Assembly: GCA_017464135.1 (NCBI GenBank)
Contig: JAFUEB010000004.1
Location: 271,049 to 335,048, forward strand
Reading direction: 5' to 3'
DNA: 64,000 nucleotides
Source of the DNA: Candidatus Saccharimonadota bacterium
GTDB lineage: Bacteria > Patescibacteriota > Saccharimonadia > Saccharimonadales > Saccharimonadaceae
Both the position numbers and the translations under genes were made by a program. This document shows positions 3,564 through 4,005 of the stretch, piece after piece. Position 1 is the stretch's first letter. Each line of letters begins with the position of its first letter. The notes beneath the pieces were generated by a model. That model saw nothing but the letters and a program-made list of their open reading frames with translations. It was not told the DNA's origin and ran no database searches.

Positions 3564-4005
3564 AAAAACCCGCTCCAAAAGGAGCGGGCATAGAAATGTG
3601 CGAGAGCTCCAAGGCTCGACGTCCGGACACCGAGTGGGTCCCGGGAGCTCTGTTACCGGTGTTAACCGGCCGAGCTACGGAATCCGCAGCGCTTCATCCG
3701 TATCCCATAGGCAGGACGTGTCCCGCTATGGACTTTTTTCACCCCGCACGGCCTTCCCCGTGCGAGTCATTCCGCGCCGCCAATTGGCAGATGCGGCGTC
3801 GTGTACCATCCGCAGGCGGTCCTACGGCGGTATTGCCCCAAGGGGCTTTTTTACTCAGGGGCGTTTCCACCCGGGGTAAATCTCCGCGCAAAGGCGCGTG
3901 TGAGGTGATTGTGGCTATGCCACGGCCTCTTACCCCGAACAGAGAACGTCCCCTTCCCCTGAGTAAATCATTACCACGGGCGGCGTACCGCACCGTAGTT
4001 AGATC
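3564..4005 (-). ncRNA. Structured non-coding RNA, about 440 nt, family not recognised
   Basis: A complete minus-strand transcription unit without a credible protein. The promoter is TTGCTA (4034-4039), a 16-nt spacer and TGATATAAT (-10 at 4012-4017). The end is a strong terminator at 3569-3588 (CCCGCTCC/GGAGCGGG) followed by a U run. The body is visibly GC-rich against AT-rich flanks and is full of perfect stems: a long-range pair UUACUCAG/CUGAGUAA, GGGGUAA/UUACCCC, GGGUG-GAAA-CGCCC, CGCGCC-UUU-GCGCG, GUGGCAUAGCCAC, GCACGG/CCGUGC, CCAUAG/CUAUGG and GAGCUCC/GGAGCUC. I looked for the RNase P P4 motif, the tmRNA ends, 6S and SRP signatures and did not find them in the right arrangement. RNase P is the main alternative because size and GC fit. 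Confidence 0.7.

Follow-up and report, generated by a model that had tools for sequence, protein, structure and literature searches.

The locus and its transcription signals

The sequence analysed here is a 64,000-nucleotide window, the minus strand of which carries, between positions 4039 and 3564, a GC-rich stretch of about 440 nucleotides bounded by a promoter and a terminator. The promoter-like sequence, identified by signal scan and alignment (4012–4039, minus strand), comprises the hexamers TTGCTA and TATAAT separated by 16 nucleotides; the second hexamer is preceded by TG, and this −10 box is retained in the homologues described below. We infer that transcription starts about 7 nucleotides past the −10 box, and folding, signal scan and alignment together predict a transcript of ~440 nucleotides (3564–4005, minus strand) ending in an intrinsic terminator with a 9-pair stem followed by TTTTT (3568–3589, minus strand). 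Taken alone, sites of this type are near chance level: four promoter-like sites were found in the scan against a shuffle mean of 2.3, and four terminator-like sites against a mean of 2.2. In alignments of the homologues, both signals are retained at the same edges of the unit, and conservation runs from the −10 box to the terminator, leaving the flanks unconserved.

An earlier note on this DNA had proposed a ~440-nucleotide GC-rich structured RNA with its own promoter and terminator, and the retention of these signals, together with the predicted fold, confirms this. The predicted folding energy of the minus strand is −214.5 kcal/mol (z −6.54), a value matched by none of 100 shuffled sequences, whilst the plus strand folds less well (z −3.84). 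The boundaries given in that note (3564–4005) prove to be right to within a few bases, and the strand, which had been left unstated, is the minus strand. The claim that the transcribed strand has no credible ORF also holds: the window has an 84-amino acid ORF there, no ORF of at least 60 amino acids is present within the RNA on the transcribed strand in the related genome G047, and one-base gaps inside the unit set the source genome (G000) apart from G047 and G051. No coding frame on that strand is conserved.

Comparison with known RNA families

The Rfam scan that had been suggested as a check finds no family at gathering score: in the whole window, Rfam 15 yields only two matches, both tRNAs located elsewhere, and the unit is unmatched. 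When matches to the unit with E-values of up to 10 are admitted, four appear, all sub-threshold, the best being to anti-hemB (23.3 bits, with a cut-off of 49.5) at the 3′ end including the terminator stem. The four homologue loci searched at E-values of up to 1 give sub-threshold matches at the 3′ end only, anti-hemB recurring at 19.8–25.6 bits in three of the four. We take anti-hemB to be a chance match driven by the terminator. There is no match between the unit and the covariance models of OLE, ROOL or GOLLD among all the Rfam 15 families.

The size of the unit would suit RNase P RNA or tmRNA, both of which had been offered as identities alongside a large orphan RNA, and the source assembly has no RNase P match and only weak tmRNA matches, mostly tRNA-sized and below the cut-off. 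That neither scores over the cut-off fits the 72% completeness of this assembly. However, of 60 genomes of the genus searched, 52 contain RNase P; in three of the four bearers of the RNA within that set (G020, G047 and G051, all but the source assembly) it is a separate gene elsewhere in the genome, and a separate tmRNA scoring over the cut-off is present at another place in six of the seven bearer genomes. Nor does the unit match an RNase P covariance model (bacterial type A, RF00010), even at E-values of up to 10; ARAGORN finds no tmRNA in the window, and the unit has no Rfam match to tmRNA (RF00023). The separate genes rule out both identities, making the chance that the unit is a divergent form of either negligible; of the three options, only the orphan RNA stands.

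Distribution and covariation

A DNA search of 149 related genomes produced matches in four: the source genome, G047 (96%), G051 (95%) and G020 (75%). These four sequences were used to build a covariance model of 184 positions (R1), which identifies the RNA in seven of the 174 genomes searched within the genus; the newly recovered bearers are G211, G209 and the distant G168. When only genomes of ≥90% completeness and ≤5% contamination are counted, the figure is three of 110. The same seven bearers are recovered among 170 genomes of the genus by a second model (R2, 144 positions) that covers the 3′ domain. In wider searches, run with strict filters under which weak matches can be lost, R1 gave two matches in 246 genomes of the family, both inside the genus (the source genome and G047), and R2 matched only the source genome among 379 genomes of the phylum; in a set of 40 genomes around G168, R2 run with laxer filters matches two. 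When one genome from each of 84,980 species was scanned with a pattern, 14 stretches were returned, six of them from Saccharibacteria (two of these six titled goat and roe deer jejunum) and the other eight giving no R2 match. No match was seen in phage and plasmid records, or in IMG/VR using the 3′ pattern. Seven IMG/VR matches to a 16-letter 5′ pattern were discarded, as neither R2 nor a longer pattern from the 5′ hairpin P1 identified them as homologues.

As judged from these searches, the RNA is sporadic within one genus of gut Saccharibacteria and confined to few species among the genomes searched. No report of it was found in literature listings on RNAs of Saccharibacteria and the Candidate Phyla Radiation, and a term search of the text of PMC8040213 gives 0 occurrences; within the literature searched, the RNA appears to be undescribed. 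The R2 model is ready for use in searching metagenomes and metatranscriptomes.

The earlier note had also named covariation among homologues as a check, its lack counting against a structured RNA, and strong covariation is what we find. When six sequences of the 3′ domain are aligned by sequence only, both-sided changes are seen at 13 of 45 pairs, a number equalled in none of 500 shuffles, and 98.9% of cells remain paired; in a model-fitted alignment of seven, the figure is 12 of 45 pairs (again equalled by 0 of 500 shuffles), most of the both-sided changes in this domain coming from one lineage, G168, so that independent events are few. Sliding the partners by 1–3 columns reduces pairing from 99% to 24–44%. 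The closing stem provides an example: AGAGCUCC/GGAGCUCU becomes AGAAGCCA/UGGCUUCU in G168. Two of the homologues also fold better than their shuffled counterparts, with z scores of −4.37 for G168 (298 nucleotides) and −5.33 for G209 (422 nucleotides). The unit is thus almost certainly a conserved structured RNA.

Domain architecture

The predicted full length of the RNA is 442 nucleotides in G000, 440 in G047, 442 in G051, 431 in G020 and 422 in G209, with a short form of 297 nucleotides in G168. The 5′ hairpin P1 (3973–3999, minus strand), defined from alignments, barely varies, the most distant homologue included, its single both-sided change being CG to UA in G020. There follows a central variable arm (3850–3967, minus strand), delimited by separate folds and allele comparison, in which a long outer stem (3967–3956 with 3861–3850) encloses an inner stem and hairpins. 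The middle hairpins (3741–3849, minus strand) are partly variable and mostly missing from the short form in G168, which lacks most of both the central and the middle parts. Finally, the 3′ constant domain (3598–3740, minus strand), which is the part modelled by R2 and supported by the covariance models and covariation, includes a hairpin at 3731–3705, a closing stem (3651–3644 with 3610–3603), an invariant CCGG loop, a CUCGCAC tail and conserved unpaired stretches.

The alleles of the central arm have the outer fold in common but not the sequence. When the arm is folded separately, the best folds from G000, G020 and G209 have the same long outer stem despite replacement of the sequence, every pair being retained (12 of 12, 11 of 11 and 7 of 7, respectively) in arms picked by hand; the inner parts of the G020 arm diverge more. 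When the G209 RNA is folded as a whole, an alternative pairing partly replaces the central outer stem, which argues against the simplest picture.

The conserved unpaired stretches of the 3′ domain raise the question of whether the RNA might be a large sRNA, a trans-acting regulator whose conserved single-stranded segments pair with target mRNAs. A sporadic, lineage-limited distribution, as seen here, is usual for sRNAs. Against this, the RNA is unusually long and mostly paired, and what is kept in its folds, variable arm included, is shape and not an exposed seed, making this explanation an unlikely one.

Genomic neighbourhood

G000, G047, G051 and G209 have a common location for the RNA, in the vicinity of rpsB, tsf and a ClpP-like gene (names read from translations or, for G051, from ORF sizes and alignments), whilst in G020 and G168 it is found at other genomic sites. 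The gene beyond the terminator is not the same among bearers. A 240-amino acid gene shared by the window and G209 follows the RNA on the same strand in both, as might be expected of a cis-regulatory leader or riboswitch acting on that gene, but in G047 its place is taken by a gene for a 489-amino acid ATPase and in G051 and G168 the following gene is in the opposite orientation. These differences argue against a cis-acting leader, and we regard this explanation as very improbable.

A by-eye search of the neighbourhoods fetched for the bearers revealed no conserved partner gene. At a distance of a few kb from the RNA, both the window (8543–9193) and G168 (L031, 5789–6487) encode ClpP-like proteins, which are 44% identical although the loci are otherwise different; this gene was considered as a conserved partner and dropped, since it was not seen in the stretch fetched for G020. 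Five neighbouring proteins in the window have no Pfam match. A 300-amino acid protein in the window (1419–2321, minus strand), without a Pfam match, apparently comprises two copies of a ~90-residue domain (LDKRT...LP.NI...FGVN, twice).

A structured RNA at a variable locus, found at different genomic sites, could in principle belong to a transposon-linked or reverse-transcriptase system as its RNA component (an omega RNA, retron or intron RNA). However, the unit has no Rfam match to such families, ten neighbouring proteins searched against Pfam include no nuclease, transposase or reverse transcriptase family, and the RNA has its own promoter and terminator; a role of this type is improbable.

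In G047 and G209, a gene encoding an MzaB-like HATPase lies beside one encoding a protein with sigma-70 region 4 and an RNA polymerase alpha-CTD, close to the RNA (L026, 9099–11984, by Pfam; L030, 133–3003, by like translations). The two look like a candidate defence pair.

Probable exchange of the inner part of the RNA

Comparison of alleles with flanking genes points to a history for the inner part of the RNA that differs from that of its surroundings. Between G000 and G209, the flanking 331- and 301-amino acid genes are 96.9% and 98.2% identical, respectively, P1 is identical at 32 of 32 positions and the 3′ domain at 133 of 140; the central arm is identical at only 56 of 104 (54%), with 16 gap columns, and the middle part at 76 of 114. 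Between G047 and G051 the reverse is seen: the same two genes are ~81% identical, with the central arm (120/120) and the middle part (117/117) identical throughout. At the sequence level, then, the inner-RNA alleles are incongruent with flanking-gene similarity. This disagreement suggests recombination, by which, in our reading, species exchange the RNA's inner part, possibly with selection for diversity. New here is the combination of near-constant ends with a central arm that exists as alleles of different sequence and the same outer fold. Two further genes adjacent to the RNA, of 104 and 262 amino acids (window 4122–5301, with counterparts in L026, L027 and L030), group the four genomes in a manner unlike the 331- and 301-amino acid genes, indicating that the whole region is a mosaic.

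Could the RNA be a component of a defence, anti-defence or selfish module, its central arm under strain-specific selection? The central arm is identical in G047 and G051 despite the divergence of their flanking genes, and just over half identical in G000 and G209 despite near-identity there, as such selection might produce; the sporadic presence of the RNA (7/174) and the closeness of the MzaB-like ATPase and sigma/alpha-CTD pair in G047 and G209 would also fit. Yet no ORF of ATPase length is found in the 3.5 kb beyond the terminator in the window or, as far as these were examined, in the regions retrieved around the RNA in G020 and G168; IMG/VR (3′ pattern) and phage and plasmid records gave no match; and the allele pattern would equally be expected if recombination acted at a variable locus by itself. 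A module of this kind is therefore a doubtful explanation.

A stand-alone RNA, possibly of the scaffold type

Our best guess is that the unit is a gene for a non-coding structured RNA that stands alone, with a predicted promoter and terminator of its own. It has the attributes of such genes in bacteria: its own predicted signals, a covarying fold, no conserved frame and no fixed neighbour. As to function, we favour, at a probability of roughly 0.45, a scaffold-type RNA of the kind represented by OLE, ROOL, GOLLD and raiA, accessory rather than housekeeping. These are the RNAs that it most resembles in kind: it is large and mostly paired, carries transcription signals of its own and is tied to no particular neighbour. 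Such an RNA would serve as a trans-acting scaffold, either by itself or together with a protein. P1 and the 3′ domain, being constant, would form a working core that binds something common, and the central arm would be an exchangeable module facing a partner that varies between strains, its variability being put up with or made use of. A more specific version, quite unlikely as it stands, would have the constant ends bind common machinery and the shape-kept arm, swapped between strains, carry strain-specific recognition of a phage, host bacterium or competitor of the epibiotic Saccharibacteria. Saccharibacteria genomes are tiny, and that 440 bases are given over to an accessory structured RNA suggests that it confers a real advantage. 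Few large structured RNAs are known from bacteria, and this one would be a further class among them, with an unusual layout of constant ends and exchangeable middle.

The likeness to these RNAs is in kind only. By sequence, the unit belongs to none of OLE, ROOL, GOLLD and raiA; the first three are families in Rfam, according to PMC12286853. GOLLD is a large stand-alone structured bacterial RNA with one conserved and one less conserved part, features that the unit appears to share, but many of its members exceed 800 nucleotides and it is found in phages and prophages near tRNA islands (PMC12286853); the unit is ~440 nucleotides long, has no Rfam match and no phage link was found for it. ROOL, a large stand-alone RNA with an elaborate fold and no known protein partner, is carried by phages and prophages, frequently close to tRNA islands (PMC12286853). 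The unit is likewise large and stand-alone with an elaborate predicted fold but lacks a Rfam match, and phage encoding of the GOLLD or ROOL type finds no counterpart for it in phage records or, with the 3′ pattern, in IMG/VR. The raiA motif RNA (ModT) is structured with a complex fold, as the unit is predicted to be, but is conserved in more than 2,500 species (PMC11706538); the unit, in the genomes searched, is confined to few species of one genus.

OLE is a large ornate RNA that forms homo-oligomers (PMC12286853) and works in a membrane-associated RNP (PMC10898510). The unit differs in having no Rfam match and no conserved neighbour gene, but is also large, and its invariant CCGG loop is palindromic, as is the loop that pairs copies of OLE (PMC12286853); palindromic loops do so in GOLLD too. 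The loop shows no variation in the homologues, and thus no covariation behind copy–copy pairing; by analogy, its self-complementarity could allow copies of the RNA to pair with each other, a lead towards oligomers and no more than that. The short form in G168 offers a separate lead. The best fold of the full-length G168 RNA is globally unlike that of the other homologues, a difference that tells against the explanation favoured here. In that fold (L025, 1499–1796), GGUGCGG near the 5′ end is predicted to be paired with UCGCACC in the 3′ tail and P1 does not form; such a pairing would close the molecule, in competition with P1.
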